A stretch of DNA of 64,000 nucleotides from Candidatus Lambdaproteobacteria bacterium RIFOXYD2_FULL_50_16 (GTDB taxonomy: Bacteria > SAR324 > XYD2-FULL-50-16). Shown here in pieces: positions 2,441 through 34,599 of the stretch (positions within the stretch are counted from its first letter, which is position 1; each line of letters begins with the position of its first letter). A model generated the notes under the pieces. The model was not told the origin of the DNA. It saw only the letters and a list, made by a program, of their open reading frames with translations, and ran no database searches. A program made the translations under genes and the position numbers. The stretch covers positions 11,884 to 75,883 of the forward strand of contig MFNE01000030.1 in assembly GCA_001783695.1 (NCBI GenBank), in the 5' to 3' direction.

Positions 2441-3559
2441 TTATCGCTCAGTTAGAGCCCGCTGGGAGGAAGAATATACCGGCTTGAGCAGGTAATGGAA
2501 GATGGTTTTACTACCCGTTTTGATACTGGCGTCTAAGGTCATGCCCGGTAATATCGGGTTGGCGCCAGGGACCTCCCCTAAAAAGGGTTTTTCAAAATCG
2601 ACTACTGCTTTGTAATAAGGCTGCCCGGTCCGGTCCAAAAAGGTAGCCGCCGAAATCTCGCGCAGCACCCCAGCCATACCGCCATAGCGAGAATAGTCGT
2701 AGGCCGTGAACTTGAGTTTGACCGACTGTCCAGGTTGCACATGGCCAATATCTTTAGAAGAGATCTGCACCTGCGCGAAAAGCTTTCGATCAATGGGGAC
2801 AATCTCCATGATCACTGCCGCAGGGGGCAAGATCCCGCCTAAAGAGTGGGCCGAAAACCCGTGAACCGCCCCCGTTGTTGGGGCGCGGATGGTCAATAAA
2901 TCCAGTTTTTCTTGTACTAAGGCAAGTTCACTGCGAACCAAGGCCAAGTCTTCATTGTTTTTGGCCAATTCCTTAAGGGTCTTTGCATTTTCGGCAATCT
3001 CTTCCATCTTGGCCTTGTATTGCTCAACCTGATTTTGAAATGCGGCCCTGCGAATATCACGATACAAAACCAAAAGCTTTAAAATCTTGTCCTGATCTTT
3101 TCGAAACTGCGCTGATTGTGGGTCATCTTCAGGGACGGTTTCACTAAACTGAATGACCCCTTTTTCTTCTATATAGGATTCTAACCGCCGCTTTTCAGCG
3201 ACCAAATATCGCTCCTGGGCTCGAAGCTGTTTTTGTTGGGCACGAATTTCTGGGTTGTCTAAAACCAACATAGGTTGGCCCTTCTGAACGATCTGTCCTT
3301 CTTCAACAAAAATATCCAAAACAATCCCGCCAGAAATGTGCTGTACCGGCTGTATTTGCCCGGTGGGGATGATCTCACCTTTGGCCACGGCAATCTCGTC
3401 CACCTCGGTAATCATCGACCAAGCTAAAAACATCACAAATACCGCCAAGGAAAAGGCCACGATCAACCTCGTGATAAAGGCCCCACCTGACTCCTCTAAC
3501 AGAATCGACTTGGAAAGGTGTTGTGATTCGAGTCGTAGAAACTTTTTAAGTCGTTCCAT
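2441..3559 (-). CDS. HlyD-family type I secretion periplasmic adaptor
   Basis: This is the membrane-fusion protein that bridges the inner-membrane ABC transporter and the outer-membrane factor. It has 372 aa, shorter than typical HlyD/LapC adaptors (about 430-470). It has a short cytosolic N-terminus, one membrane segment (about 30-50), a first lipoyl half (GEIIPTGQIQPVQHISGG, about 61-95), a hairpin coiled coil (about 105-220), a second lipoyl half (LTIRAPTTGAVHG) and a C-terminal beta-barrel region. The coiled coil is short, so the periplasmic channel or its OMF contact may be compact. It starts 7 bases after the stop of the upstream ABC gene, so they are cotranscribed. Confidence 0.93.
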   Translation of the reverse strand: MERLKKFLRLESQHLSKSILLEESGGAFITRLIVAFSLAVFVMFLAWSMITEVDEIAVAKGEIIPTGQIQPVQHISGGIVLDIFVEEGQIVQKGQPMLVLDNPEIRAQQKQLRAQERYLVAEKRRLESYIEEKGVIQFSETVPEDDPQSAQFRKDQDKILKLLVLYRDIRRAAFQNQVEQYKAKMEEIAENAKTLKELAKNNEDLALVRSELALVQEKLDLLTIRAPTTGAVHGFSAHSLGGILPPAAVIMEIVPIDRKLFAQVQISSKDIGHVQPGQSVKLKFTAYDYSRYGGMAGVLREISAATFLDRTGQPYYKAVVDFEKPFLGEVPGANPILPGMTLDASIKTGSKTIFHYLLKPVYSSSQRALTER

Positions 3560-3566
3560 AGTTTTC

Positions 3567-5696
3567 CTAAGCGCCCAAAAATTTGGGCAATATTTCCTCT
3601 TTGCTGCCGTAGGCCCGCATGCGGCCCTTTTCGAGCCAGAGGATTTTGTCAGCTAGCTCGATAAAACTCAAATGGTGAGTGGCTATCAAGATGGTTGAGC
3701 GGCCTTTGATTTTTCTAATCTCGTTTATAAAGGCGGCTTCTTTTTCGGCGTCACCAGACAAACCAAACTCAGGGTCGTCAAATAAAACCAAGCTGGCCTC
3801 TTTTAAAAACACCCGTGCCAGACTGATTCCTTTGCCTAATTTTTCGGCTAACTCGCCCATAGTACGGCTGTTGGCAAAGGTATTAAACCCTTCAGGCAGT
3901 TCCATGATTTCGTCATAAATCGAGGCTTTACGGGCCGCCTCCCAGATCTGCTGACTAGTGGCGGCAGGATTGGCGAGGCGCATGTTTTGGGTTAAGGTGC
4001 CATGGAAGAGTTGGTTCGATTTGGGCACGTAACCGATTGATTTACGAAGTGTAATCGGGTCAATCTGGCGCAGGTTCATGTCGTCGATCAATACCCGCCC
4101 CGCTTGCGGGTGGTAGTAACCTAACACCAACTTGAGCACCGTCGATTTACCCGCCCCATCATGGCCAACAATCGCCAAGGTTTCTCCCTGTTTTAGGTCA
4201 AACTGAACCGCCAAAAGGGCGGGTGGAGCCTCGGGATTGTAACGGATGGAGACGTTGTTAAAGGCCAGTTTGCCGTGAATACTTTTGGTCAAAGACATGT
4301 TTGTGTCGATCCGGGTTTCGATATTCATCGACATTAGCCGGTCCAATTGGTTGACACTTTTGCCTAATTTTCCGACCTGAGTGATAATCCCCAATCCGGT
4401 CTTTACCGGCGCTAACACCCGCCCTAAAAGTAACATACAAGCCATCAAAGCCCCAACCGACATCCCCCCGCCAATCACCTGATACACCCCAACGGTCATG
4501 GTGGCCAAACTGGAAAAGGTCACCAGTGATTGGCTGGTTGTACCAATCAATGCGTTTAGGCGGGCGGCGTAAAAGCTGTTTAAGGAGGCCTTGGCCGAAA
4601 TTTCCCGGTATCTCTGGCAAAAAATACTGGCACTACCGGTAAACTTAATTGCCTGAAAATTCGAAAGCATATCGAGCAAAAACTCTTGCCGCTCGGACGC
4701 GGCTTTAGAGGCCTTGGCGTTGGTTTGTTTAACCAACGGGTTGATAGCAAAAGCGAAGGCAATAAAGATTAAAATGGAAATGGTCGGAATATAGGCGACC
4801 GGTCCGGCAATAACTACCATGCCCACGATCAGCATGATCACAAAGGGCAGTTCAACTAGGGCCGTAAAACCGGGGCCTGCGAAAAACTCGCGGATCGATT
4901 CAAAATCCTTAATGTGAGAGATTTGGCTGGCTAAGCTAGCCTCTTCGGTGAAGCCCGGTGGCAGATAGAGGATACGCCTCAGTACTTCAATCCCCACAAT
5001 ATTGCCCATACGCACACTTACAAAACCAAACAACCGACTGCGAAGCACACGAAAACCAAAATCGCCGATCACAAAGATAAAAATCCCCATAACCAAAAAC
5101 ACCAAGGAGTAGGTCGATTCGGCAACCAACAACTCGTTATAGATGGTCATAACAAACATCGGAGAAATAAAGGTAAAAACCGATAAAATAAAGGTAATGA
5201 TCAACCCTAACATAAAGGAGACTTTAAAACGCCCTAGAGCCTTGGCGAACCATTCTTTTTGGGGTTTTAAAAATTCAATTTTGTCTGATTGCAAGGACTC
5301 GAATAACAAGGCCAAACCTTTGATCGGCTCTGAGGAGATTTGTTTGTAGGTGGCCGACTTACCGTCAAATATTAGTAATTTTCCCTCGACCTGCTCCACC
5401 AATACCTGCGCCGTCCCCCCTTCGGGCACCCAAATACAGGGCAAAAGCCTGGGGTCTAGGTGATCAAGCTGGGTTGAAACCCCTTTGGATTCAAACTTTA
5501 GGATGGCCAAGGTGTTACGGAATTCGGCCAAGTCCATCTTCGAGGCCATGTAGCTATGAGCTTCGGCCAATTGAGATTGGGTCCCTAACCAACCCAAACT
5601 ATCAAGTAAGGGAACCAAGCAATTAGAAAAGGGGCTCCGCTTTTTAAAACGGGTTCTTAATTTAAATCGAATGGACGATTCGTCGGGCCGGTTCAT
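3567..5696 (-). CDS. Type I secretion ABC transporter, live half with C39-like domain
   Basis: At 709 aa this has the usual length for an HlyB/LapB-type exporter. The N-terminal ~130 residues resemble the peptidase C39-like domain; I see no obvious catalytic Cys-His set, so it would dock substrate rather than cut. Membrane segments fill about 155-440. The nucleotide-binding domain has an intact Walker A (GHDGAGKST, about 509), a Walker B reading LVLFDDPE (Asp replaces the catalytic Glu) and an H-loop His (ATHHLS). The signature motif is degenerate: LGKGI where LSGGQ is expected. The ATG directly abuts the hemerythrin stop (TAGATG). With the dead ABC partner upstream it can form exactly one ATP site. 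Family assignment is firm; the heterodimer is inferred. Confidence 0.92.
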   Translation of the reverse strand: MNRPDESSIRFKLRTRFKKRSPFSNCLVPLLDSLGWLGTQSQLAEAHSYMASKMDLAEFRNTLAILKFESKGVSTQLDHLDPRLLPCIWVPEGGTAQVLVEQVEGKLLIFDGKSATYKQISSEPIKGLALLFESLQSDKIEFLKPQKEWFAKALGRFKVSFMLGLIITFILSVFTFISPMFVMTIYNELLVAESTYSLVFLVMGIFIFVIGDFGFRVLRSRLFGFVSVRMGNIVGIEVLRRILYLPPGFTEEASLASQISHIKDFESIREFFAGPGFTALVELPFVIMLIVGMVVIAGPVAYIPTISILIFIAFAFAINPLVKQTNAKASKAASERQEFLLDMLSNFQAIKFTGSASIFCQRYREISAKASLNSFYAARLNALIGTTSQSLVTFSSLATMTVGVYQVIGGGMSVGALMACMLLLGRVLAPVKTGLGIITQVGKLGKSVNQLDRLMSMNIETRIDTNMSLTKSIHGKLAFNNVSIRYNPEAPPALLAVQFDLKQGETLAIVGHDGAGKSTVLKLVLGYYHPQAGRVLIDDMNLRQIDPITLRKSIGYVPKSNQLFHGTLTQNMRLANPAATSQQIWEAARKASIYDEIMELPEGFNTFANSRTMGELAEKLGKGISLARVFLKEASLVLFDDPEFGLSGDAEKEAAFINEIRKIKGRSTILIATHHLSFIELADKILWLEKGRMRAYGSKEEILPKFLGA

Positions 5697-7073
5697 CTAG
5701 TAACTTATGTCAGGGTGACTATAAAGCTCGAAGTCCACATCGTTGATGTGGTTAATCCAGGGCCTTAAAACCATCGTTTTCACCTTGGGCGAAAAGGCTA
5801 AGTTTCCCACTTTAAGGTGGGAGCGTAAATCAGCTAAGTCTTGCAAAATTTCGTCGTGTTGCCTTTTGTGCTCGCGGTACCTAAAAGGGATCTCCAGCGC
5901 CAACCAAGCCTCTTCTTGAGCAAAAAACTGCCTACCTAGGTCGTGTATTTTTTGTAAGAGGTACACCGTTTCTTGGACCAAATCATCAAGGCGCGTCTCG
6001 CCGATTTCCCATGACTCAATAACCAACACCAAGTCTAAAATCTTATCGGTTAGTTTTCGGTGGGACTCATCCAGCCAGTCCATACCGGTGCTGCGCAGGA
6101 AATATTTGGCCTCGTTCCAGTTGCGCACCTGTTTTACTACGGTGGTTAAAATACTCGCCTCCGCGAAGGTCTCCGCATCCACTTCGTTTATATGGTCGAT
6201 CCAGACCAAGATCAAAGAATCTCTAATTTCTTTGACAATACCAGCCCGACAACGGACCAAGTCGTCTCGTAGCGACTCTAATTGTTTAATAATGCGGTAA
6301 TGTTCTTCAAGGTGGAACTCTTTATTGGGTAAATTGAATCGCTCAATGAGCACCCGCTCGCGAGCAAAATGTTCGGCCATTTTAGAGGCGATAATCTGGA
6401 AATGGTCTTGAAGCTGCGCCCCTAATTTATCCGGCAGGAATTGAAGTGCCTTGTTTAGCTTGATAATGGAAACCAAAATATCTTTGTGATCATGGTCCAC
6501 ATATTCAATCCCGAGGTTATGGATTAAAAGGGCCACATGGTCCCACTTTTCCGCGTGGTCCACGATGTTTTGGTGCCAGCGAGAAAGGGTGAAGGTTCGT
6601 CCGTCGGTTTTGTTGACATGGGCGATCATCCAGTCTTGTAAGAAAAGTTTTAAAAGCTGGCCGATCTTGAGTTTGCCTGCTTTAAAGTCCGAGATCATCC
6701 CTTGTAGGGTGTCGATAAAATATTGGTGTTCTTCTTTTTGCTGTGGGCCACCCTCTAAGAGGTATTGCTCTATCATCCACTCTTCGCGGTCAAACTGTTC
6801 GGTGACAAATTCCAAAACACCTTGGAGAAGTTTTCCTTGGGCTTGAATAAAATCCATGTCCCTGGGTTCGTCTTCAAGTAGGTCTTGCAACCGGTTGTTT
6901 TCAAGTACAAATAAAACCATTTGCTTGAAATATCGCTGCATAAAAAACACACCTGTACGAATAATAATTTTGCCAATATCAGGTTGCACCCTTGCAGTCT
7001 GCCAGACCCAACGCTCCCAAGACTGTTGCCGTCTTTCTTCTAGGGTCATGTCTTTTTCTTCGATCATCAGCAT
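5697..7073 (-). CDS. Triple-module hemerythrin protein within the T1SS operon
   Basis: Three hemerythrin-like four-helix modules lie in tandem in 458 aa. The middle one (about 190-300) has all the di-iron ligands by spacing: H196, H235, E239, H254, H258, H294, D299 (DHDHKD, HFARE, FHLEEH, HINEVD). The first (about 40-158) keeps AHVNKTD but has Gln for the HFxxE His. The third (about 330-448) keeps H338, H402, H406 and HINDVD but has Phe for the HFxxE His. So probably one module binds oxygen and two are structural. No signal peptide or membrane segment is present, so it is cytosolic. It sits between two ABC genes with 2 and 0 intervening bases and has an AAGGA SD. I infer that it couples O2 or iron state to secretion; no function is known. 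Confidence 0.88.
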   Translation of the reverse strand: MLMIEEKDMTLEERRQQSWERWVWQTARVQPDIGKIIIRTGVFFMQRYFKQMVLFVLENNRLQDLLEDEPRDMDFIQAQGKLLQGVLEFVTEQFDREEWMIEQYLLEGGPQQKEEHQYFIDTLQGMISDFKAGKLKIGQLLKLFLQDWMIAHVNKTDGRTFTLSRWHQNIVDHAEKWDHVALLIHNLGIEYVDHDHKDILVSIIKLNKALQFLPDKLGAQLQDHFQIIASKMAEHFARERVLIERFNLPNKEFHLEEHYRIIKQLESLRDDLVRCRAGIVKEIRDSLILVWIDHINEVDAETFAEASILTTVVKQVRNWNEAKYFLRSTGMDWLDESHRKLTDKILDLVLVIESWEIGETRLDDLVQETVYLLQKIHDLGRQFFAQEEAWLALEIPFRYREHKRQHDEILQDLADLRSHLKVGNLAFSPKVKTMVLRPWINHINDVDFELYSHPDISY

Positions 7074-7075
7074 GG

Positions 7076-8839
7076 CTATTCCTTAGGAGAAAAGAGGTTG
7101 ATCTCGATATTGCGTGGCCGAGTCTGAGTAGAGGCCCCCATTTTGGTCAATCGGCCCTTTTTAAGGCTAAAGCGGCGGTCGGCCTCGGCTAAATATCGCT
7201 CATGTTCGCTAACCAGAATTATCGTGCAGTTGCCCTTTAATTTATCGAGTACAAACTTAAAGACCCTTTTTGAATCCACATCGGCCACATCCAAGACCCG
7301 GTTGATCAAAAAAATTCTTGGCCTGACTACCAACGCGCGAGCAATGGCAATTCGGTGCAACATCCCCGAGGGCAAGACGCTATTGGTATGACCCCCGACC
7401 AGGGTTTCGTATCCCTTGGGCAACTGGGCCACCATTTCGTCGAGTTCAATTAGGGAGGCGGCATCTAATGCGGAGGACTTTTTGCGGGTATCAAATAGGG
7501 TGATATTTTCTAAAATCGTACCCCGAAAAAGGTAACTGTTCCCCGAAAGATATTCCATCCGACCTTGCAGGTTAGTATGATCCCATTGGAAAATATCATA
7601 CTTATCAATCAACACCTGCCCGTGGCTTGGATTGAAAACGCCACACATAATCAAAAGCATATGGTTAGTGGCGATGGTATCGGTAGAAGAAATGCCAATC
7701 ATCTCGCCAGGATTGATGGTCAGGTTGATTGACTCTAAAATCGGCTCACCTGTGTTTAGATTGTGGTAAGAGACGTTTTTAAGTTCAATCTCCCCTTCAA
7801 TGGCAGATGGGAAAGGGGGGGCTCCAGGTTTGGTGTCAGGCTCGGTACGGGCGATTTTAGAGATTTTTTCTTGTAAAAGATCGGCTTCTGAAAGTTTTAG
7901 CCAAAAGGTCGCCGCTGCCTGCACCGGGCCCAAGGACCTTCCACCTAGCATGGTGCAAGCCGTCAGCCCACCTACCGTCAAAGTTCCTTCTAAGACCCGC
8001 CCTGCCCCAAAACCGATGGTGCCAAACATAATCGCTTGAGAAAACAAAAACCCGATGTTGCTAGGCATGGCGTTCCAAAAGTTCACCCGCATGTTCGAGG
8101 TAGCGGCGTTTGCCTGAAGCCGTTCATAACGGCGCAACATCTGCTCTTCCATGGTCAGGCTTTTGACCTGGCTAATGGCGTCTAAGATCTCAATAATAAA
8201 GTTATATCGTCGGTCGGTCTGGACGGATTGTTCATTTTGGGCGGTTTCCAGGCCCTGTTTGAAATATTTAATAACCCATAAATAAAGCAGAATCATAACA
8301 ATTGGGAACAACACCAACCATCCACCTACAAAGCCAATCGCCAGCAGGAATAAAACCAAAAAGGGCAGGTCTAAAAGCATTTGGAACGCTTGGCCGGCGT
8401 AAAAGCTTTTAAGCTGGCCCACGGTGTTCAGCCGGTCGAGATGAACCCCCACTTCTTCCGATTGGAACCGGGCCAATTGACCCGATAAGAGGCGATTGAC
8501 CGCAGAGCAGCTAAGTAAGTGTTCAAAACGGGCCGCCATCCAACTACTGATCCAGCTTCTGGCGTAGCGCAGCGCCCATTCTAAGCTAAAGGCGATGATA
8601 CAGCCAAAAACCAGCCAGATTAGGGTATCTGTGGTATGGTTGCGGATAACTCGGTCATAGACCTGCATCAAGGTTAGAGGCAGACCTAAAGAAAAAACGG
8701 TAATCAAGCCAGAAGCCACTGCAATCTGTTTAGAACCGACCCAAAGGTGTTTCATCGCCTTGAGTTGCTCAAGCAGGGTGCCCGGATTTTTAAAGTGGTC
8801 GATTAAATCGACCGGTGCTGTTTCTTCAGGATTGGTCAT
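7076..8839 (-). CDS. Type I secretion ABC half-transporter with degenerate (dead) ATPase site
   Basis: It has 587 aa: an exporter membrane domain (about 40-330) followed by a nucleotide-binding domain, without the C39-like domain of its partner. Key ATPase motifs are lost. The Walker A position reads GISSTDTIATNH (about 381) with no GKS/T. Walker B reads IFLINRVLD (about 507) with neither Asp nor Glu. The signature is LPSGM. The fold markers around these motifs are kept, for example GQVLIDKYDIFQW and GYETLVGG. It is first in a tight operon with the triple hemerythrin, live ABC and HlyD. I infer an obligate heterodimer in which this chain supplies the signature motif for the partner's Walker A. 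It is not a pseudogene: the frame is intact and conserved outside the active site. Confidence 0.9.
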   Translation of the reverse strand: MTNPEETAPVDLIDHFKNPGTLLEQLKAMKHLWVGSKQIAVASGLITVFSLGLPLTLMQVYDRVIRNHTTDTLIWLVFGCIIAFSLEWALRYARSWISSWMAARFEHLLSCSAVNRLLSGQLARFQSEEVGVHLDRLNTVGQLKSFYAGQAFQMLLDLPFLVLFLLAIGFVGGWLVLFPIVMILLYLWVIKYFKQGLETAQNEQSVQTDRRYNFIIEILDAISQVKSLTMEEQMLRRYERLQANAATSNMRVNFWNAMPSNIGFLFSQAIMFGTIGFGAGRVLEGTLTVGGLTACTMLGGRSLGPVQAAATFWLKLSEADLLQEKISKIARTEPDTKPGAPPFPSAIEGEIELKNVSYHNLNTGEPILESINLTINPGEMIGISSTDTIATNHMLLIMCGVFNPSHGQVLIDKYDIFQWDHTNLQGRMEYLSGNSYLFRGTILENITLFDTRKKSSALDAASLIELDEMVAQLPKGYETLVGGHTNSVLPSGMLHRIAIARALVVRPRIFLINRVLDVADVDSKRVFKFVLDKLKGNCTIILVSEHERYLAEADRRFSLKKGRLTKMGASTQTRPRNIEINLFSPKE

Positions 8840-9226: not shown

Positions 9227-10636
9227 ATGAGGGGAATTGGCGTCTTTTTGCTCTTTTGCATTTGGTTTGCTCCTGAACTAAGGGCGGTAACCCTACAAGA
9301 GACCTTGCAAAACGGTATGGCCTCGGAAGAAGCGCAGTCTGAATTTTCCAGGAGTCACCAGGCGATTGATTATCGGGCAGAGGAGGTGGACGAACTGACC
9401 GTCAAAAGCAAACTGACATCAAAATTTGTCCGCTCTCGTAATGATTTGGCCGACACCCAAGACGTGGCGGTTACCGCTTCAGATAAATTTACTAGACAGG
9501 TCGCCTATACCCAGACCTTTGACATGGGCCTTGAGTGGAGCCTGACCCACTATGACCGAGATGAAAACCCACTTAATTCGGGTTCGTCCAAGTCTTTTTA
9601 TGGCAAGGATATTTTTGATATTTCGATGGCGATTTGGGGCTCAAGACTCGATAAAGAACGGCTGACCTCCCAAAAAAGGGAGATTGAGTTGGAAGGGGAA
9701 CAGGCTAAAACCAGCGGGGTCGAACGGCAGTATCAGGTTGAATTGGCAAAGGCCTATTTGGATTATTATCTGGCTCAACAAGAAGCCCAACGCAAAGCAA
9801 AATTAGCCAATCTGACCTTTCAAAAATTGCAGTTTATGGAATCCATGGCGCGGCGTGACGCTCCCATGGAATATCAAAACCTGCAAATGGAAGCCTTGCA
9901 GGCAAGGCATGAAGAGGCCCAAGCCCAGGTTAGGGCGGAGCATTTTAAACAACTTTTAGAACTCGCCCAAGGTTGGCCGGTTAAAGACGAGGCTCTACTA
10001 GAAGAAGCACGGCCCCGGATGTTAAAGGCAGAAGAATTGGCCAAACTTTACCAAAACGGGGATCAGGTAAAGGTGCTAGCCAGAAAAATTCGCACTGCCG
10101 AGCGGGACCTAGGGATCGAACGGGCAGGATATCAGCCCGAAGTGATTATTGGGGGATTTACGGGCCGCACCAACAACGGCTCCCAGGACGGTTTTAGCAA
10201 AGGAACCTATGTGGAGATCAACTACCGCTTCGGCGGCGGGGGCTGGGAAAAGGCCTCGCGGTTAGCTTTGGAGCTTGAAGAACTAAACCTTGATCTGGTT
10301 GACTTAAAAAATCAGCAGGTGCACCAAGCGGCTGCGGATTCGGCTGAACTCAAGATGGCGGCTGAGATGGTGGTTATCAAGACCAAACAATTAGAGATTG
10401 CCCGGGGGATTACCAAGCAATCGTTGCAATCCTTCGGGGTGGGGCAGCAGGGGCATTTAGAACTGGTTGGCTACCAAGAAAAGGAGATTAACACCGAGGC
10501 TGGATTAGACAAAGCCAAGGTGGATTTATGGAAAAAACTGGCCGATATCGCCCAAAAGGCGGAAGTCGATCTTTTAGAATTGGCCGGATGGCCTAGTTCG
10601 TCTAATCAGCCGGAAAACTTCCCGGCACAACCATGA
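9227..10636 (+). CDS. TolC-like outer-membrane factor of the type I secretion locus
   Basis: This is the outer-membrane channel partner for the HlyD/ABC complex encoded divergently. It has 469 aa with a signal peptide (MRGIGVFLLFCIWFAPELRA, cleavage about residue 20). Long Gln/Glu/Ala/Lys-rich helices follow in two blocks (about 130-270 and 330-450). A beta-hairpin segment before the second helical block (TYVEINYRFGGGGWEKASR) matches the conserved FGGG turn of TolC-family proteins. The start is followed by a hydrophobic core, which supports the chosen ATG. It is the first gene of a rightward operon; the next starts 13 bases after its stop. Confidence 0.88.
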   Translation: MRGIGVFLLFCIWFAPELRAVTLQETLQNGMASEEAQSEFSRSHQAIDYRAEEVDELTVKSKLTSKFVRSRNDLADTQDVAVTASDKFTRQVAYTQTFDMGLEWSLTHYDRDENPLNSGSSKSFYGKDIFDISMAIWGSRLDKERLTSQKREIELEGEQAKTSGVERQYQVELAKAYLDYYLAQQEAQRKAKLANLTFQKLQFMESMARRDAPMEYQNLQMEALQARHEEAQAQVRAEHFKQLLELAQGWPVKDEALLEEARPRMLKAEELAKLYQNGDQVKVLARKIRTAERDLGIERAGYQPEVIIGGFTGRTNNGSQDGFSKGTYVEINYRFGGGGWEKASRLALELEELNLDLVDLKNQQVHQAAADSAELKMAAEMVVIKTKQLEIARGITKQSLQSFGVGQQGHLELVGYQEKEINTEAGLDKAKVDLWKKLADIAQKAEVDLLELAGWPSSSNQPENFPAQP

Positions 10637-10649
10637 TCGAGACTTAACA

Positions 10650-12890
10650 ATGAGATACTGGCTTTCTTTGATCTGCTTAATACTTTTCGCCTCTTCGGCG
10701 ATGGCCAAGGAACTGGTGATCACCCGCGACAATACCCCAGAGTGGAGTTTTGACCGCCCGATCTGGGCTGAACTGGTTTTAGGGGAGGTCGTAGCCCACA
10801 ACCGCGCGGTGGCCAACCTAATGGCTCACTATAAAACCCAACCCTTGCTAAAAGCCTTAAGCGACGAAGAGTCGGCCGCCTTAGGGCATGGCATGGTCTG
10901 GTGGGATTTTCGCGCCTTGCCTAAATACCCTTTAAACAACAGCCATGGCCTCTATTTCGAAGCTAATTTCCGCGCCACCGAAGACGACTTGACCCTCAAG
11001 TCGGGGATGATGCTAAACAAACGGCTTTCCTGGCTTTTAGAACTACGAGAACGTTTAAAAGAGCAACAAAAAGAATTAGAAGACGCCAAGGCTGGACAGT
11101 TTGTTAAAATGGCCCAAGCGACAGACCGGCTTTATAACCTTTTGGGCCAAATCAACGTCAACAGCCCCATGACACCTGCGCCTTTTAAAGACGGTTTAGA
11201 AGCCCTGCTTAACAAGCAGTCCGAAGCCCGCCAAGCGCAAATCCGTGCGATTGAAGACGAGGTTGACCCTTTAGCCCAGCTTAACAAACAAAGGGCCTTT
11301 TTTGAAGCCGAACTCAAACGCAGAGAAGAACTACTGGCACACAACACCCACCTGTTCCCAGTAAAAGACGACGAGGCCGGGCTTTTGGCCCAAGCCGAAC
11401 GGCTCAAAGCTGAATTTAACTTCTTTTTAGGTTCTATCCGCATCTATGAAGCCCAACTTAACCGAGAACGGGCTAGAGCGTTTGAGGAAGTCCGCAGGGA
11501 ACTAAAAGCCAAACAACCAGAACCGCCAGATCGTGAAAAATATCCGGCTCCCGAGGCTTATGCCAAGGCTCAAGAAGAGTTCCGCTCGGCGATTCGGGCT
11601 AGCTTAAAAGAGCTAGAGGTCACCAAAAGGCAAAACCAAGCCTTAGAGGCTTTAAAAGAAGCGGAAGCAAGAGTGTGGTTAGGCGAAATGGCTACCCAAG
11701 TTTTAAAACCACGGCTAGAAGCTTTAAGTAAGTTAAAAAACCAGCGGGTGACCGTAGAGGATAAAGACCTCCGTTTTGTGGTTAAAGGATTGGATAAGGA
11801 AGAGCTAGGGGTTCGTTTTGGTTATAAAGGAGCCAATTGGGACCAGACTTTCCCTTCACAAACGATGTTAAATAAGGACGATTTTACTGTAGCCGGGCTT
11901 TGGCGGCTGGCTAGTCCTGATGAAAAACGGATGTACTTCACCTTTGCCGGGGTAACCCTAACCCACAAGCCCGATTCAAAGACACGGTCCTATGAATTAA
12001 CCGACCCTCTGCCCTTTTCTGAAGAAGCGGTTTACGAAAAATATGCGATTGCCGACACAGATAAAGCCCGGATCGAGACTAAAAACCTCAACTACGCCCA
12101 CCGAATGCAAGACAAGCTCTGGGACAAAGAGCTAGGAATGGAGTTTGTTTTGGTGGACGGTGGCTGTTACCAGATGGGTTGTTCGCCCAAGCAACGTCGC
12201 GACGCCGATGGTAATCTTTATTCTGCCAATGAGTGTGAGGAAAACTCTCAACCTGCTCACGAGGTCTGTTTAGATTCGTTTTTATTAGCCAAGTTCGAGA
12301 TTACTCAAAAAATTTGGGAACAAGTGATGGGCTCCCAACCCTCCAAGTTTGCTAAGGGACCCGATTTCCCGGTCGAGTCGGTCACCTTGACCGACGTGCG
12401 TGCCTTTTTAAGTAAGCTCAAGTCCCAAGGCAAAAACTACCGCCTGCCGACCGAGGCCGAGTGGGAATTTAGCTGTCGAAGTGGCAAACAGATGGACTAT
12501 GGCACCTCTTCGGGCGCGGCTAACCACGATCAAGCCAACTTCGAATACACCGGAGGCCGAGACCGGTGGGGCGAAACCGCGCCCGTGGGCTCTTTCCCGC
12601 CCAACCTCTTGGGGCTTTACGACATGAGTGGCAACGTTTGGGAATGGGTTGAAGATGGCTATGACGCCAACTACTATGCCTCCAGCCCCAAAAACAACCC
12701 TCTCAATCAACAAAGTGGAGCCAACGTGCTTAGGGGGGGGTCTTGGCTAAGCCATAGCTCGAATCTTAGCTGTTACAAACGGGTGATCAACGCCCCCGAA
12801 TACACGAACTTTACCGTTGGTTTTCGGGTGGTCCGCGAGGACGCCGAGGGTAATAAACCTGAAGCGGCTCCGGCGGCCAAGTCCAAGTAA
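10650..12890 (+). CDS. Secreted coiled-coil protein with C-terminal FGE-sulfatase-fold domain
   Basis: It has 746 aa with a signal peptide (cleavage after ...FASSAMA, about 19). The middle (about 120-370) is a long charged helical region rich in Glu, Lys, Ala and Gln. The C-terminus (about 497-735) is a formylglycine-generating-enzyme/sulfatase-modifying fold: MEFVLVDGGCYQMG, RLPTEAEWEFSCR, LLGLYDMSGNVWEW, VLRGGSW and GFRVVR in the canonical order. True FGE has two cysteines near the end; here only one remains (SNLSCYKR), so catalysis is doubtful and binding is more likely. Extra cysteines (CYQMGC, NECEE, EVCLD) could form disulfides in the periplasm. It is encoded directly after tolC and 5 bases before the TerB-like gene, so I infer an accessory of the secretion apparatus or its surface product. 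Confidence 0.82.
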   Translation: MRYWLSLICLILFASSAMAKELVITRDNTPEWSFDRPIWAELVLGEVVAHNRAVANLMAHYKTQPLLKALSDEESAALGHGMVWWDFRALPKYPLNNSHGLYFEANFRATEDDLTLKSGMMLNKRLSWLLELRERLKEQQKELEDAKAGQFVKMAQATDRLYNLLGQINVNSPMTPAPFKDGLEALLNKQSEARQAQIRAIEDEVDPLAQLNKQRAFFEAELKRREELLAHNTHLFPVKDDEAGLLAQAERLKAEFNFFLGSIRIYEAQLNRERARAFEEVRRELKAKQPEPPDREKYPAPEAYAKAQEEFRSAIRASLKELEVTKRQNQALEALKEAEARVWLGEMATQVLKPRLEALSKLKNQRVTVEDKDLRFVVKGLDKEELGVRFGYKGANWDQTFPSQTMLNKDDFTVAGLWRLASPDEKRMYFTFAGVTLTHKPDSKTRSYELTDPLPFSEEAVYEKYAIADTDKARIETKNLNYAHRMQDKLWDKELGMEFVLVDGGCYQMGCSPKQRRDADGNLYSANECEENSQPAHEVCLDSFLLAKFEITQKIWEQVMGSQPSKFAKGPDFPVESVTLTDVRAFLSKLKSQGKNYRLPTEAEWEFSCRSGKQMDYGTSSGAANHDQANFEYTGGRDRWGETAPVGSFPPNLLGLYDMSGNVWEWVEDGYDANYYASSPKNNPLNQQSGANVLRGGSWLSHSSNLSCYKRVINAPEYTNFTVGFRVVREDAEGNKPEAAPAAKSK

Positions 12891-12895
12891 AAGCG

Positions 12896-13483
12896 ATGCA
12901 GTTACTCCGCCTTTTAGATAAAAACCTCGAGATTCGGGTCGCCTATTTAAGTATGGTGGCCCGAATGGCAAGTGCTGATGGCACCTTGGATGACGAAGAA
13001 TTAGCCTTTCTGCGTCATAAATTAGAGGTGTTTGCCATCCCAGAAGCCGAGCAAACCCAAATCTTAACCCCGGCTAAGCTAGACCCAACCGAGTTGCAAG
13101 CGGTTTTTCGAGAATTGGTCAAAGAAAACCTGCATTACAGCTTTTTGCTCGATCTGATTATTATGGCGGTCGCCGATGGGCACATCCAGAACCGGGAGCG
13201 CGAAATGTTGCAAAAGGTTAAGCAATACATTGGCATACCCAGTTCAGATTACCATAACCTTATCAACTTCGCTCAGGCTTCAGCCGGTCGCGACGACATC
13301 GAAAAGATCGATCCCGCTCACCTCAACGTTTTAGAAAGTTTCTACCGCTGGGCCAAAGAATTCTTGGTGCCCCTTTACGACCAAACCGGTTTTGCACTGA
13401 ACCCCAAGGTGGACCAAGACCTCAAGGAACTCTTTGAAGAACTCACCGCTGAAGATCAAGACGAAGACTCGGATTTGCTGTAG
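12896..13483 (+). CDS. TerB-like (tellurite-resistance/DnaJ-associated) domain protein
   Basis: It has 195 aa. The helical TerB-like fold is suggested by two acidic repeats in the expected places, MASADGTLDDEE (about 23) and AVADGHIQNRERE (about 91), each resembling the metal-binding turn of TerB/DjlA N-terminal domains. No signal peptide is present, so it is cytosolic. It starts 5 bases after the FGE-fold gene and overlaps the next gene, so it belongs to the tolC operon. Tellurite resistance is not implied: there is no ter cluster. Its role in this operon is unknown. Confidence 0.7.
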   Translation: MQLLRLLDKNLEIRVAYLSMVARMASADGTLDDEELAFLRHKLEVFAIPEAEQTQILTPAKLDPTELQAVFRELVKENLHYSFLLDLIIMAVADGHIQNREREMLQKVKQYIGIPSSDYHNLINFAQASAGRDDIEKIDPAHLNVLESFYRWAKEFLVPLYDQTGFALNPKVDQDLKELFEELTAEDQDEDSDLL

Positions 13484-14597
13484 AAAAAGTATTACCTACT
13501 TGACCCAAGTCTTTATCTTAGGCTTGCTTAGCCTGACTTTAATTGGATGCAACCCCATGACCTCTTCGGAACAAACTAGAGAATCCAAGATTCAAACCTC
13601 CCCCCAATATCAGGGTAAAAAATTCGTCAATCCCAACGGCGCCCCCCATTATTCATTGGCCGACTTTTGGCTGATGGCTAAAAAATATACGGTTATCCCC
13701 AGGGTCGATCCCAAGCCCATCGGCGAGATTCCGGTGGTGTCGGTGGATCCCAAAGATTGGCTAAATCTGGACCCAAAAGAAGTCTTTTTTAGCTGGCTTG
13801 GGCATTCTAGCCTCCTGATTAGTCTGGAGGGGAAAACGATTTTGGTGGACCCGGTTTTAGAAGAGCGAGCGTCGCCTTTTAGTTGGATTGGGCCCAAACG
13901 CTTCCACCGGGCCCCGGTGAGTGTGGCCGGGTTACCCCCGATTGACGTGGTTTTAATCACCCATGATCACTACGACCACTTAGAAGAGCCCACCCTGCGG
14001 GCACTGGCCCAAAAGGTAGGCCTATTTGTGGTGCCCTTGGGGATTGGGGCACTACTCGAAGAATGGGGGGTAAGCCCTGAAAAATTAGTGGAACTCGACT
14101 GGTGGCAGGCCCATCCGTTTGGACCTCTGACGCTAACCGCGACCCCGGCGATCCATTATTCTAGCCGTAGTTTGTTCGACGCCAACCAGCGGCTTTGGTG
14201 TTCCTTTTCACTGGCAGGGCCGAACCGCAAAATCTTTATTAGTGGGGATTCGGGGTATTTTGCAGGGTTTAAAGAGGTCGGCGAACGACTGGGTCCCTTC
14301 GACTATACCTTCTTGAAGATCGGGGCCTACGACGAGACCTGGAAAGATGTTCATATGACCGCTGAAGAGGCGGTGGCGCAACATCTGGATTTAAGGGGCA
14401 ATCTAATGGTCCCCCTGCACTGGGCCAGCTTCGATATGGCGCTACACCCTTGGTACGAGCCGATTGAGCAGATGCGGGCGGCAGCGGATTTGGCAAGGGT
14501 GCGCTACCTAACCCCCCAAGTGGGACAATTTATTGGCCCCCAACCTCCGCCCCAAACCCTTTGGTGGCAGCCTTTAGCTCCGGGTCACTCCTTTTAG
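13434..14597 (+). CDS. MBL-fold metallohydrolase, NAPE-PLD/UlaG-like, probable lipoprotein
   Basis: This 387-aa metallo-beta-lactamase-fold protein carries LGHSSLLISLEGKTILVDP and the metal motif THDHYDHLE (HxHxDH), with later ligands in SGDSG and PLHWASF. The pattern matches NAPE-phospholipase-D-like/RomA hydrolases (COG2220). A TTG start at 13434 has an SD (AAGGA, 5 bases upstream) and lies inside the TerB-like gene. It gives a Lys/Arg-rich n-region, a hydrophobic stretch and a lipobox (LTLIGC), so the protein is likely lipid-anchored. A TTG at 13500 is an alternative start that would lose the positive n-region. It is the last gene of the tolC operon. The substrate is unknown; phospholipid or N-acyl compounds are the family precedent. 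Confidence 0.83.
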   Translation: MKNSPLKIKTKTRICCRKSITYLTQVFILGLLSLTLIGCNPMTSSEQTRESKIQTSPQYQGKKFVNPNGAPHYSLADFWLMAKKYTVIPRVDPKPIGEIPVVSVDPKDWLNLDPKEVFFSWLGHSSLLISLEGKTILVDPVLEERASPFSWIGPKRFHRAPVSVAGLPPIDVVLITHDHYDHLEEPTLRALAQKVGLFVVPLGIGALLEEWGVSPEKLVELDWWQAHPFGPLTLTATPAIHYSSRSLFDANQRLWCSFSLAGPNRKIFISGDSGYFAGFKEVGERLGPFDYTFLKIGAYDETWKDVHMTAEEAVAQHLDLRGNLMVPLHWASFDMALHPWYEPIEQMRAAADLARVRYLTPQVGQFIGPQPPPQTLWWQPLAPGHSF

Positions 14598-14821: not shown

Positions 14822-16984
14822 ATGAAAGAGATTTTTGATCCGATGGTTTTATTAACTGCCTTAGGTGTACTGGTTGCTGCCATTGGGGTATTTGTAACCT
14901 ATCTCCAATATGATAAGACAGCCGCCAAGTCCCCAAAAATCGATCCCCAAATCATTCAACTCGATTACCAAAGCTCCATCACAAATTTAGCCCATCCAGG
15001 GATGGGTCTTACAGGGTCCCTTACTCAAATCGGCCAACAGATCAATCATAATTACGGCCTCACGGAATCACAACTACAGGATTTAATTAAAAACGTAATA
15101 AAGACTTTACCTAATGAAAATGAAGCCAGTCAGAAGTTGGAAAAATATATCCGTTTAGCGTCGGAATACAAAGAGTTGGCAGAAAAAAACTTGGCAGGGA
15201 ACAAACTAGCCCAAGAAGCGCAGGAAGCGGTGACTGGTGGGCGGCTCGACGAGGCCTTGGCCCTCTACGACCAATCCGAAGCCGCTTGGGCAGAATTAGG
15301 GGAGCAGGCCAAAGCCTTCCAGGCAGAGGAATACTTTGAGGCCGCCAAGATTTTAGAGTTCCAATGCAAATACCCGCCTGCCCTTCTAAAAATCCAAGCC
15401 GCCCTCCAACTAGCCCCCAACCGTTGGGAGTTTAATAACCTTTGGGGGGTTTTGTTAGTGGATACAGTGGACTATCAAGGAGCGATCCAGGCCTTCCAAA
15501 CCGCCCAAACCCAACTCCCCAACCCCCAAGGGGTGGAAGCGGCGAGCCTATTTAACAACCTGGGTAATGCTTGGAGTGAGCTAGGCGAATATGCCAAGGC
15601 CATCGAATTTTACGATCAAGCCTTGCCTATCTTTAAAAAGGCCCTAGGGCCAGAGCATGTTTCTGTGGCCCAAACCTATAACAACCTGGGTACTGCTTGG
15701 AGTGATCTAGGCGAATATGCCAAGGCCATCGAATTTTACGATCAAGCCTTGCCTATCTATAAAAAGGCCCTAGGGCCAGAGCATGTTTATGTAGCCTCAA
15801 CCTACAACAACCTGGGTTTGGCCTGGGCAGCGCGGGGCGAATATTCCAAGGCCATCGAATTTTACGATCAAGCCTTGCCTATCTATAAAAAGGCCCTGGG
15901 GCCAGAGCATGTTTATGTAGCCCAAACCTATAACAACCTGGGTACTGCTTGGAGTGATCTCGGCGAATATGCCAAGGCCATCGAATTTTACGATCAAGCC
16001 TTGTCTATCTTTAAAAAGGCCCTAGGGCCAGAGCATGTTTCTGTGGCTCAAACCTATAACAACCTGGGTAATGCTTGGAGAAATCTCGGCAAATATTCCA
16101 AGGCCATCGAATTTTACGATCAAGCCTTGCCTATCTATAAAAAGGCCCTAGGGCCAGATCATGTTTATATAGCCCAAACCTACAACAACCTGGGTATTGC
16201 CTGGAGAAATCTAGGCGAATATGCCAAGGCCATCGAATTTTACGAAAAGGATTTGAAAATTACTCTAAAGGCCCTAGGGACAGAGCATGTTTCTATGGCC
16301 CAAACCTATAACAACCTGGGTACTGCTTGGAGTGATCTCGGCGAATATTCCAAGGCCATCGAATTTTACGAAAAGGCCTTGTCTATCTTTAAAAAGGCCC
16401 TAGGGCCAGAGCACGACTATCTGGCTCAAACCTATAGCAACCTGGGTACTGCCTGGAGTGAGCTAGGCGAATATGCCAAGGCCATCGAATTTTATAATCA
16501 GGCCTTGCCTATCTTTAAAAAGGCCCTAGGGCCAGATCATGTATCAGTAGCCCAAACCTATAGCAACCTGGGTACTGCCTGGAGTGAGCTAGGCGAATAT
16601 TCCAAGGCCATCGAATTTTATAATCAGGCCTTGCCTATCTTTAAAAAGGCCCTAGGGCCAGAGCATGTTTATTTAGCCAAAACCTATAACAACCTGGGTT
16701 TGGCCTGGGAAGCGCGGGGCGAATATGCCAAGGCCATCGAATTTTACGATCAAGCCTTGTCTATCTATAAAAAGGCCCTAGGATTGGACCACCCTGATAT
16801 AGCGGGAACCTCCTTAAATCTTGCCCTGGCATACGAGGCTCAAAGTGAGCGGCAAAAGGCCTTAGTTTATGCCCAACAAGGGATGGCGATCTTTGAAAAA
16901 AACTTCGCCCAGCTTAACCCCAACCACCCCGATCTACTTAAAGCCCGCCGAGTCCTAGCCCACATTGAGGGCTCAACCCTCTAG
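14822..16984 (+). CDS. Membrane-anchored TPR protein (kinesin-light-chain-type repeats)
   Basis: It has 720 aa. An N-terminal membrane segment (about 8-27, MVLLTALGVLVAAIGVFVTY) anchors it. A helical linker and less regular TPRs follow, then ten near-identical 42-residue TPR units (about 252-671, for example GEYAKAIEFYDQALPI and YNNLGTAW), the spacing of the kinesin-light-chain TPR class. TPR superhelices bind peptides or proteins; the partner here is unknown. The gene is single, preceded by a GGGAGGGG SD. Its repeat array is nearly identical at DNA level, so repeat number may vary between strains. Confidence 0.88.
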   Translation: MKEIFDPMVLLTALGVLVAAIGVFVTYLQYDKTAAKSPKIDPQIIQLDYQSSITNLAHPGMGLTGSLTQIGQQINHNYGLTESQLQDLIKNVIKTLPNENEASQKLEKYIRLASEYKELAEKNLAGNKLAQEAQEAVTGGRLDEALALYDQSEAAWAELGEQAKAFQAEEYFEAAKILEFQCKYPPALLKIQAALQLAPNRWEFNNLWGVLLVDTVDYQGAIQAFQTAQTQLPNPQGVEAASLFNNLGNAWSELGEYAKAIEFYDQALPIFKKALGPEHVSVAQTYNNLGTAWSDLGEYAKAIEFYDQALPIYKKALGPEHVYVASTYNNLGLAWAARGEYSKAIEFYDQALPIYKKALGPEHVYVAQTYNNLGTAWSDLGEYAKAIEFYDQALSIFKKALGPEHVSVAQTYNNLGNAWRNLGKYSKAIEFYDQALPIYKKALGPDHVYIAQTYNNLGIAWRNLGEYAKAIEFYEKDLKITLKALGTEHVSMAQTYNNLGTAWSDLGEYSKAIEFYEKALSIFKKALGPEHDYLAQTYSNLGTAWSELGEYAKAIEFYNQALPIFKKALGPDHVSVAQTYSNLGTAWSELGEYSKAIEFYNQALPIFKKALGPEHVYLAKTYNNLGLAWEARGEYAKAIEFYDQALSIYKKALGLDHPDIAGTSLNLALAYEAQSERQKALVYAQQGMAIFEKNFAQLNPNHPDLLKARRVLAHIEGSTL
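15575..16834 (+). repeat. Ten tandem 126-bp repeats coding for TPR units
   Basis: Ten units of 42 codons share long identical blocks (aaggccatcgaattttacga and aaaaaggccctagggccaga). Variation is concentrated at a few positions: Ser/Tyr after HV, Asp/Asn/Glu before QAL, Ser/Ala after GEY. The near-identity of synonymous sites suggests recent duplication or gene conversion. Confidence 0.85.
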
Positions 16985-29000: not shown

Positions 29001-31325
29001 TTAACTCCGTCCCCCAATAAAGGGGGCGTAGCCTAGGTCCACAATCATGATATGGTTTTGCAACCACTCTTTTAAGAACTGCAACAATGGATCGCCGATC
29101 TGCTCTTGGCCAGATTCGATCGCCTTCACATGCTCCGTGAGTTGACCGATAATCTTTTTATGGCGCGCTAAGTGGGCAGTTTTGTCGGTGTAGTTCGAAG
29201 ACATAAAGATTCCTTCTTCCTCACTGAAGTGATTAACCGCCACCTTAGCCAGCCTTTGAATGGCGTCAATTTGCTCGGGCTGTTTGGCCTTGGCCATCTT
29301 CAGTTTATATAGCTCATTGATACCGTCCACAATCAGCTTGTGTTGGGTATCAATAGTATTGTTGCCGATTAATAAGGCATCGGTCCAGAAAAAGAAGGTG
29401 TCACTGTTTTTAGAGAAGACCCCAATCGAGTCTTTAAGCGAGTTAGAAAGGGTCGAAAGCCGACCCAGGTTTTGGATGTTTTTCTCATTAAGCACCCCGT
29501 TATCCCCGATAGAGCGATTCATCTGGGCAATGCTGGTAGTGATTTCTTTTAACCCTTGAGAAATTTCCGAAGAGGTACGAGCGATTTCTTTAACCCCTAA
29601 AGCTGCTTCTGAAACGTTGCGGGCGGCAGACCTGGACGCGGCTGAAGCTTCGGAGGTGCTGCGAGTAATTTCTTTGATACCCGAGGCTGCTTCTTCGACG
29701 TTAATCGACGAATCCTTAACCGCCTTGGCCACCCCTTCAATCACATCTGCCAATTGTTTGGCATTTTTGGTTTGTTCTTCGACTAACGAACTGATTCCTT
29801 GGTTGATTTCTGAAACCTGCAAAATCACCTTGGAGACCCCTTGGGTCCGCACTGAACAACGCCCTACCAGTTCCTGAACCTGATCGATCTGTTGGGCAAT
29901 TTCGTTGTTGGCATCGGTAGTTTGCTTGGCTAGTTCTTTAACCTCACCGGCCACAACCGCAAACCCCTTGCCCGCTTGGCCTGCACTGGCGGCTTCAATC
30001 GTGGCGTTTAGGGCTAGCATGTTGGTCTGGCTAGCGATGTTGTTCACAAGCTGCAAAATCTGTCCAATCTGCTGGGTTACATCGCCCAACTCATTCATTG
30101 CCTTAGAGTTTTCCTCGGCCCCTTTGTTGGCTTCCAGCGAAATATGGCTTGCCCTTGAAGTACTCGCGTTAATGTTTTGTAAGGAGCTAGAAAGACTGTT
30201 GACCGCCTTGATAATCACCGTCTCGACGTCGTGGCTGATTTTGCCCACGTTGTCGCTAATCCCTGACATATTAACTGAGGCTTCTTCTGCGGCTGCCGCG
30301 ATGGTGTTCATGTTGGCGCTTAATTCTTCTACCACGGTAGTAATACTAGAAACGTTGGCGCTGGCTTCCTCAGAGGAACTAGCCATGGAGGCCATATTGG
30401 CGTTGATCTCTTCGGTCGCAGAACTAATCGAACCAGACATACCCGTCATTTCGGAGGAGGCTGCTTTGATTGAGTTACTGTTTTTATTAAGGTTTACCAC
30501 CAGGGAAGCGGTGGTATCACTGGCGCCGATAATCTCGCTGATGGTACCTTCGAGCTTGCCAATAAACTGGTTAAACCACTTGGCTAATTCGGCTATTTCA
30601 TCGTGGGATTTAACATGAATCCGCCGAGACAAATTGGCATCCCCCGAAGCGATATCCTTTAACATCGCAATAACATGATTCAGCGGGCCAGATATTTGCG
30701 CCGAAAGTACAAAGGAAGCGCCAATGGCTATGATTAGGCCCAAAATCAAACAAATCGTCAACAAGGTCTTTGCTTGGGCGGTGGCTTCTAAATCCTCGGT
30801 TTTGGCCTGATCCACTTCCACAGAAATTTCGGCGATAATTTGCCCCAAAAGGGCGGTATTTTCGGCCTTTACCTCGTCAAAGTAGTCATCTAAGTCAGAC
30901 AAAAGCTTGGTATCTTTGGCCCCGCGATTAATTTCAGGGATCAATTTGTTAAAGCCTACCTTTAATACTCGGTCAAAATTTTCAAAAATCTTTTTGAAAT
31001 TTTTCTGTTTGAGCTCGGTATCGGCAAAAGTCACGTAATGGGCTCGGTCTTCTTTGACTTCCTTAACAAAATCATTCAGGAAGGCAATTCGTTCGGCCTC
31101 AACCTTACCTGTCTCTTTGTCCGCCAGGATATCCATAAAATTCAGGACAAGCTGAATGGACATCAGGTTTAGATCTGCCACTGCTTCCGTAGCTTCGTGC
31201 TTTTTATTCAGCCGGTTAGCTGCTTCATGGCTCGAATTTAGCGCCCAGAATGCGACCATGTTGGCCGTAAAAAACACTAAGATGACGACGGCGAATCCCG
31301 CCCTCAGTTTGGCTCCGATTTTCAT
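29001..31325 (-). CDS. Methyl-accepting chemotaxis protein with C-terminal hemerythrin
   Basis: This 774-aa receptor has a membrane segment (about 10-30), a helical periplasmic sensor (about 31-190), a second membrane segment (about 190-208), HAMP ([19 protein letters not shown]), and a long MCP coiled coil with the CheA/CheW-binding tip ([31 protein letters not shown]). A bacteriohemerythrin domain forms the tail (about 640-770). All ligand motifs are visible: IDTQH, HFSEEE, HLARH, HIMIVD. The architecture matches the family precedent of DcrH, an oxygen-sensing receptor of Desulfovibrio. I infer aerotaxis or O2 avoidance. It is monocistronic with its own terminator. Confidence 0.95.
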
Positions 31326-34169: not shown

Positions 34170-34592
34170 CTATTTAACCCCAGCCTTGAGCAAGTGGGGG
34201 CTGTATTTCATATCTACCTCTAATATATGGCTAATCAACCAATCAAGAAGGTAGGCAAGCATGTCGGCGATGGCGTCGTTTAGTTCGGAGTCGGCCTTGG
34301 CTTGTTCCCGGTGGATCTTAATTTCTGAAAAAAAATCTTGGTGTTGGGTGCGGTGGTTGGCTAGATCGGCGTACTTGGTTTGGTAAAGCAGTTTTTCTTC
34401 ATGCTCGAAGTGGATACGGGCGTAGGCCTCTAACGCGTCAAACAACCTTTCGGCTTGAGGACGGTCGGTGGAGGGATCAAATTGGCGGTGCAAGACATTG
34501 ATTGCCATCAGCAGCTTTTGGTGCTGCTGATCAATCGAATCAATTCCGGTGTTCCAATCCGTTTTCCAAACTAACTTTTCGAATTGGACCAT
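34170..34592 (-). CDS. Bacteriohemerythrin
   Basis: This 140-aa single-domain hemerythrin begins LVWKTDWNTGIDSIDQQHQKLL and has the full ligand set: DQQH, HFEHEE, HRTQH and HILEVD. These proteins bind O2 reversibly at a di-iron site and carry or sense oxygen in microaerophiles. It is last in the leftward cluster, 7 bases after the lipoprotein stop, so it is cotranscribed with envelope proteins. Confidence 0.95.
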   Translation of the reverse strand: MVQFEKLVWKTDWNTGIDSIDQQHQKLLMAINVLHRQFDPSTDRPQAERLFDALEAYARIHFEHEEKLLYQTKYADLANHRTQHQDFFSEIKIHREQAKADSELNDAIADMLAYLLDWLISHILEVDMKYSPHLLKAGVK

Positions 34593-34599
34593 TTTTTAC

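Follow-up and report, generated by a model that had tools for sequence, protein, structure and literature searches.

The window – the whole 64,000-nucleotide stretch of DNA analysed here – carries at its left end a tight operon in the order ABC1, triple hemerythrin, ABC2, HlyD and a giant low-complexity presumed cargo gene, with a TolC-like gene divergent from it. The operon genes all lie on the minus strand: ABC1 (7076–8839), whose sequence motifs indicate a half-transporter with a pseudo-ATPase NBD; the multi-hemerythrin subunit (5697–7073); ABC2 (3567–5696), by its motifs a half-transporter with an N-terminal C39-like region; the HlyD-type membrane fusion protein (2441–3559; TIGR01843, above cut-off); and the presumed substrate (1–2243), which runs off the window's left end. 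The TolC-like outer membrane channel (9227–10636, plus strand) contains an OEP domain. PF00664 and PF00005 are present in both ABC genes and, together with the adaptor in the operon and the TolC-type channel, these complete the gene set of a type I secretion exporter. An earlier note on this DNA had placed the hemerythrin gene in a type I secretion operon, abutting both ABC genes. This was confirmed: the flanking genes are ABC exporters of that type, and the gaps are 2 bases (ABC1 to hemerythrin) and 0 bases (hemerythrin to ABC2).

The description of the ABC genes as LapB-type was only partly upheld. TIGR03375 (LssB/LapB) is the best model for both, but the label is loose, since ABC2 (457 bits) and ABC1 (333 bits) both fall below its curated cut-off of 693. 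A link to LapA/LapD/LapG retention was considered and rejected: a LapG-type protease (PF06035) was not found in the window genome or in seven of the other eleven genomes with the hemerythrin system. FNR-like sites (two mismatches) are in excess over shuffles across the window (58 versus 28), with no excess specific to the operon. On the 3′ side of the TolC-like gene, closely spaced genes (10650–14597, plus strand) encode FGE-sulfatase-domain, TerB-domain and metallo-beta-lactamase-fold proteins, and 14822–16984 (plus strand) encodes what by eye is a 720-residue protein of near-identical kinesin-light-chain-like TPR repeats.

The frame at 5697–7073 is a real one, and its 458-residue product scores above the cut-offs of three hemerythrin models: TIGR02481 (1.5e-37, 128 bits; cut-off 51.75) and NF033749 (1.5e-33, 116 bits; cut-off 84), each matching three stretches, and PF01814 (34 bits; cut-off 25.3). 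The structure prediction called for in the earlier note was in agreement, AlphaFold2 with 12 homologues returning a four-helix bundle in each of three modules (3 × 4 helix pattern; mean pLDDT 84.2, pTM 0.73). Module 2 of an earlier, first model aligned with DcrH-Hr (2AWC) over 130 residues at 1.9 Å (Z 17.0); this alignment to a solved hemerythrin covered module 2, while the bundles of modules 1 and 3 rest on the AlphaFold2 helix pattern. The window contains two further hemerythrin genes, both on the minus strand: 29001–31325, encoding 774 residues with a C-terminal hemerythrin domain, and 34173–34595, a single-domain frame of 141 residues.

A neighbourhood search for the gene order gave a clear answer: hemerythrin lies between ABC1 and ABC2 in all twelve genomes found to encode a triple or quadruple hemerythrin protein – three SAR324, Magnetospirillum sp. 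SS-4 and eight other Pseudomonadota. Among 52 genomes of the window's class, three (G000, which is the SAR324 MAG containing the window, G013 and G023) encode the full protein, always in this position. The order is the same in SS-4 (L026), where the presumed substrate gene adjoins ABC2 and HlyD is divergent. A search with the hemerythrin profile alone of 398 evenly drawn genomes of the SS-4 phylum yielded eight more, every one with ABC1–hemerythrin–ABC2, and with an HlyD-sized gene of typical N-terminus adjoining the ABC pair wherever the contig reaches. In several relatives the ABC and hemerythrin genes overlap by 4 bases. Half of the twelve proteins have four modules, the others three. Distribution is nonetheless sporadic: searches of a further 316 genomes of the SS-4 order, and of 385 genomes drawn from its class, found no additional case. 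GTDB contigs gave no match to a single-protein scan with the hemerythrin protein and eight loci to a profile scan, a search that under-reports the family: two are true members (L025, L026), while L027 and L032 were rejected as ordinary hemerythrin genes without ABC exporter neighbours and L028–L031 as scoring like single hemerythrin domains. A tblastn search of plasmids with the SS-4 protein gave no match. Two variants of the neighbourhood were seen. A single-domain hemerythrin gene (L106 6159–6749, G851) lies directly upstream of ABC1, 2 bases away, and may provide this operon with a second hemerythrin input. G013 has an additional, short HlyD-like adaptor gene (L024 5919–6770, minus strand) between the main HlyD and a TolC-like gene.

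A second feature of these loci concerns the two ABC genes, which encode homologous halves. In all twelve hemerythrin-containing loci the P-loop Lys of ABC1 is replaced by Thr, Met or Ala and the catalytic Glu by Lys or Arg, and the H-loop His is absent; the window protein reads Thr and Arg at the first two positions and carries the signature LPSGM. By these motifs ABC1 is a pseudo-ATPase. The Walker A of ABC2 (GH-D/G-G-x-GK) is intact in 11 of the 12 loci, which are all those with sequence available. In the window ABC2 retains Walker A (GHDGAGKST) and the H-loop, its Walker B has DD in place of DE, and its signature is degenerate (ELAEK); degeneracy of the signature is general to the SAR324 members, and several of the other loci have lost the H-loop His. 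The losses are complementary in that one site stays near canonical, ABC1 keeping an LP-S/T-G-type signature and ABC2 Walker A and B. Because ABC1 appears to be a pseudo-ATPase and the only intact Walker A is on ABC2, no more than one canonical ATP site could be active, the one formed by the Walker motifs of ABC2 and the ABC1 signature.

The closest hemerythrin-free relatives are the ABC1–ABC2 pairs of Rhodospirillales and Azospirillum (L036, L069–L088), which are homologous and adjacent in the same order, and widespread in Rhodospirillales. Unlike the hemerythrin-containing loci they have no hemerythrin gene, and their ABC1 proteins keep the catalytic Glu in 21 of 21 cases and the P-loop Lys in 20 of 21. 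In Azospirillum the two halves are fused into one protein, and for this reason ABC1 and ABC2 probably form a heterodimer. These hemerythrin-free pairs are split or fused; an ABC1 profile at E < 1e-80 matches 205 of 314 Rhodospirillales genomes. Hemerythrin-free ABC2 proteins often have long low-complexity N-terminal extensions; such N-terminal segments in some of them (759–1216 aa) were considered as sensor domains and dismissed, being of low complexity or, in L077, the product of an over-called start.

In the ABC1 tree the hemerythrin-associated proteins occupy one side of a branch with SH-aLRT 100. Since they form one clade, the link between hemerythrin and the pseudo-ATPase half counts as one evolutionary event; it is compatible with a single origin rather than with repeated coupling. 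A single insertion could have been inherited passively, and ABC1–ABC2 pairs without hemerythrin exist and presumably work, so the gene might be a mere passenger of the operon that plays no part in export. Yet the family spans two GTDB phyla at approximately 25–30% identity with gene order, iron ligands and N-terminal motif all kept, and on account of this conservation we regard passive carriage as very unlikely.

What the exporter carries is suggested by its neighbour. The open reading frame of the presumed substrate starts at 2243, 197 bases after HlyD, and ends at contig position 7111; it measures some 7 kb in all (L022 7111–14126) but spans assembly gaps (NNN), so its length and frame are uncertain. 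The product is a giant repeat protein rich in Ala, Gln, Thr and Asp; Ala makes up approximately 44% of the first 740 residues, and Asp/Lys-rich runs also occur. Six presumed substrates with a visible start share an N-terminal motif – EFDELTNLADVE in the window, ELDDLTVLQNVE in SS-4, and ELDxFTVLLDVE or ELDQMTVLLNTE in other loci – followed by long low-complexity repeats. Pfam searches of sampled pieces returned no domain except one low-complexity match. On grounds of position, repeats and shared motif we presume this protein to be the candidate cargo.

A central issue is whether the hemerythrin modules are equipped to bind oxygen. Module boundaries in the window protein are approximate. Module 2 (6150–6578, minus strand; residues 166–308) is alone in having a complete seven-ligand di-iron site (H196, H235, E239, H254, H258, H294, D299). 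Module 1 (6579–7019, minus strand; residues 19–165) retains four of the seven ligands, with F49, Q93 and Q112 in place of His, and module 3 (5715–6149, minus strand; residues 309–453) retains six, F383 replacing the helix-B His. That only the middle module is complete thus agrees with what had been noted before; modules 1 and 3 are indeed both damaged, although module 1 has lost three His, more than had been claimed.

Alignment of all 42 modules of the twelve proteins revealed a regular pattern. Every protein has exactly one module with all seven ligands, the last in ten of them and module 2 in the window and L023. All but one of the incomplete modules (29 of 30) have Gln in place of the first His of helix C, the sole exception being window module 3 with its helix-B Phe; among 33 control hemerythrin domains from outside the family Gln never occurs there. 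We take this His to be His73 of textbook hemerythrin numbering, an Fe1 ligand. Oxygen binds hemerythrin at Fe2, and the Gln-type modules would therefore retain the ligands on the oxygen side. Incomplete modules of the eleven relatives still have six of the seven ligands, both His of the oxygen-binding iron among them, and for that reason look tuned rather than dead. Window module 1, which is also without both Fe2 His, probably has no working Fe2 site and looks to be the one module that is truly dead. The proposal that flanking modules serve as scaffold may thus hold for window module 1, and perhaps module 3, but does not extend to the relatives.

Scaffolding could nonetheless be the task of the protein as a whole: the bundle stack might bridge the pseudo-NBD, the C39-like domain and unfolded cargo as a structural or assembly subunit, with iron needed for folding and not for sensing. 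The conserved N-terminal W-x-R-W..QTAR motif and the inter-module Trp residues lie outside the iron sites, the window protein tolerates ligand loss in two modules, and the presumed substrates share an N-terminal motif, all of which would suit such a role. A pure scaffold would be expected to shed ligands more freely, as window module 1 has done, whereas all 12 proteins keep the complete site and almost all of their other modules hold six ligands. We consider this account possible, if on the unlikely side.

Local chemistry would make direct use of the iron. Hemerythrin proteins are numerous in microaerophiles and have been discussed as oxygen stores or sensors (PMC3770913), and more than ten hemerythrin-domain loci besides the triple-hemerythrin gene are present in the window genome. 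The protein might act as a local store or scavenger of O2, ROS, NO or iron beside the exporter, or protect the exporter, with no part in signalling. Other, stand-alone hemerythrin genes would suffice for such a purpose, and neither the strict placement between the ABC genes nor the rule of one complete module is explained; we find this reading doubtful.

The hosts offer a further clue. Magnetotactic bacteria are typically dwellers in gradients. Several genomes with the system encode a close homologue of MamK (best matches 5LJW, 5JYG and 5LJV at approximately 1e-119), these solved structures, labelled actin-like ATPase, being ones that we take to be MamK. In the phylum sample MamK was found in 8 of 9 genomes with the hemerythrin system versus 44 of 389 without it (Fisher p 4e-7, for genomes that are not phylogenetically independent). 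The ninth genome, G864, shows neither MamK nor MreB, and because MreB is missing too its assembly is probably incomplete. Two of the three SAR324 genomes with the system have MamK; it was not found in the window genome (97.9% complete). One SAR324 host, nPCR_bin7 (SAR324 cluster bacterium nPCRbin7, JADGAV010000032.1), is a published magnetotactic MAG (PMC7602337). An adjacent magnetosome cluster was sought and rejected: in G013, G023 and G058 MamK lies on other contigs than the operon. Given that the genomes are not independent, that most MamK-containing genomes are without the system and that the window genome has no detected MamK, we regard the system as over-represented among magnetotactic bacteria but not as part of the magnetosome toolkit.

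Our preferred reading is that the hemerythrin protein acts in the cytosol as a dedicated, oxygen- or redox-responsive subunit of a type I secretion exporter whose ABC halves form a heterodimer; we assign it a probability of about 0.45. The order found in 12 of 12 genomes, the coupling at 2 and 0 bases, the degeneration of ABC1, the Azospirillum fusion, the rule of one complete module and the enrichment in MamK-containing genomes all argue for it. Its two parts differ in strength: dedicated membership of the exporter unit is well supported, whereas gating of export by oxygen or redox state is inferred. Against the reading stand the restriction of the system to one clade, the damage to two of the three window modules, the non-independence of the MamK link and the finding of no operon-specific site for an oxygen regulator.

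As to mechanism, our proposal is tentative. The subunit would hold or release the pseudo-ATPase half, so that oxygen or redox state switches export of the giant surface protein directly, after translation, in gradient-dwelling and mainly magnetotactic hosts. Its docking site could be the pseudo-NBD of ABC1 or the ABC dimer, with contact made perhaps via the conserved helix bearing the W-x-R-W..QTAR motif. Binding of O2 (or a redox or NO signal) at the one complete site, its response tuned by the six-ligand Gln-type sites, would change the bundle stack and thereby allow or block the ATP cycle. Export could be turned either on or off by oxygen; in either direction surface protein output would be matched to the position of the cell in the oxygen gradient.

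There exist parallels with several known systems. Exporters of the LssB/LapB type (TIGR03375; for example LapBCE for the adhesin LapA) likewise combine an ABC membrane domain and NBD, the C39-like N-terminus seen on ABC2, an HlyD partner, a TolC-like channel and giant repetitive cargo. Unlike these, the hemerythrin-associated exporter has two unequal ABC halves, one a putative pseudo-ATPase, with a multi-hemerythrin gene between them. A near-canonical ATP site paired with a degenerate one also characterizes the heterodimeric exporters TAP1/2, TM287/288, BmrCD and TmrAB and the asymmetric full transporter Pdr5, the last with a comparable breadth of motif loss (PMC7756269). The exporter described here differs from these in being of the protein-exporting type I secretion type, in the Lys or Arg that replaces the catalytic Glu in its degenerate half, and in the metalloprotein encoded between its halves. 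The complete module resembles bacteriohemerythrin of M. capsulatus (4XPX) and DcrH-Hr (2AWC) in fold and ligand set; three or four modules, the patterned His-to-Gln change at the helix-C ligand and an exporter rather than a chemoreceptor as neighbour set the family apart. DcrH-Hr, the hemerythrin domain of a chemoreceptor, is a precedent for hemerythrin as a sensory input. No report linking a hemerythrin with a type I secretion ABC pair was found in the open-licence literature, the scope of our search (subscription papers lay outside it), in keeping with the earlier note, which knew of no described type I secretion system with such a component.

In the usual description of type I secretion, a homodimeric ABC exporter works with an adaptor and a channel, and control is exerted at transcription or through subsequent cargo release; the role of hemerythrin in bacteria is often unclear. 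That the exporter represents a new form of type I secretion is, as a conserved unit, well supported. If the reading offered here is true, a conserved metalloprotein subunit joined to a pseudo-ATPase half would constitute a new means of controlling such an exporter, and a bacterial hemerythrin would gain a defined partner. The finding also points to an uncharacterised family of surface proteins in magnetotactic bacteria; one member is in Magnetospirillum, and because strains of this genus have been cultured and are amenable to genetics, a knockout is plausible. Our analysis of these loci suggests that oxygen or redox state may control the output of cell-surface protein in sediment and magnetic-sensing bacteria.
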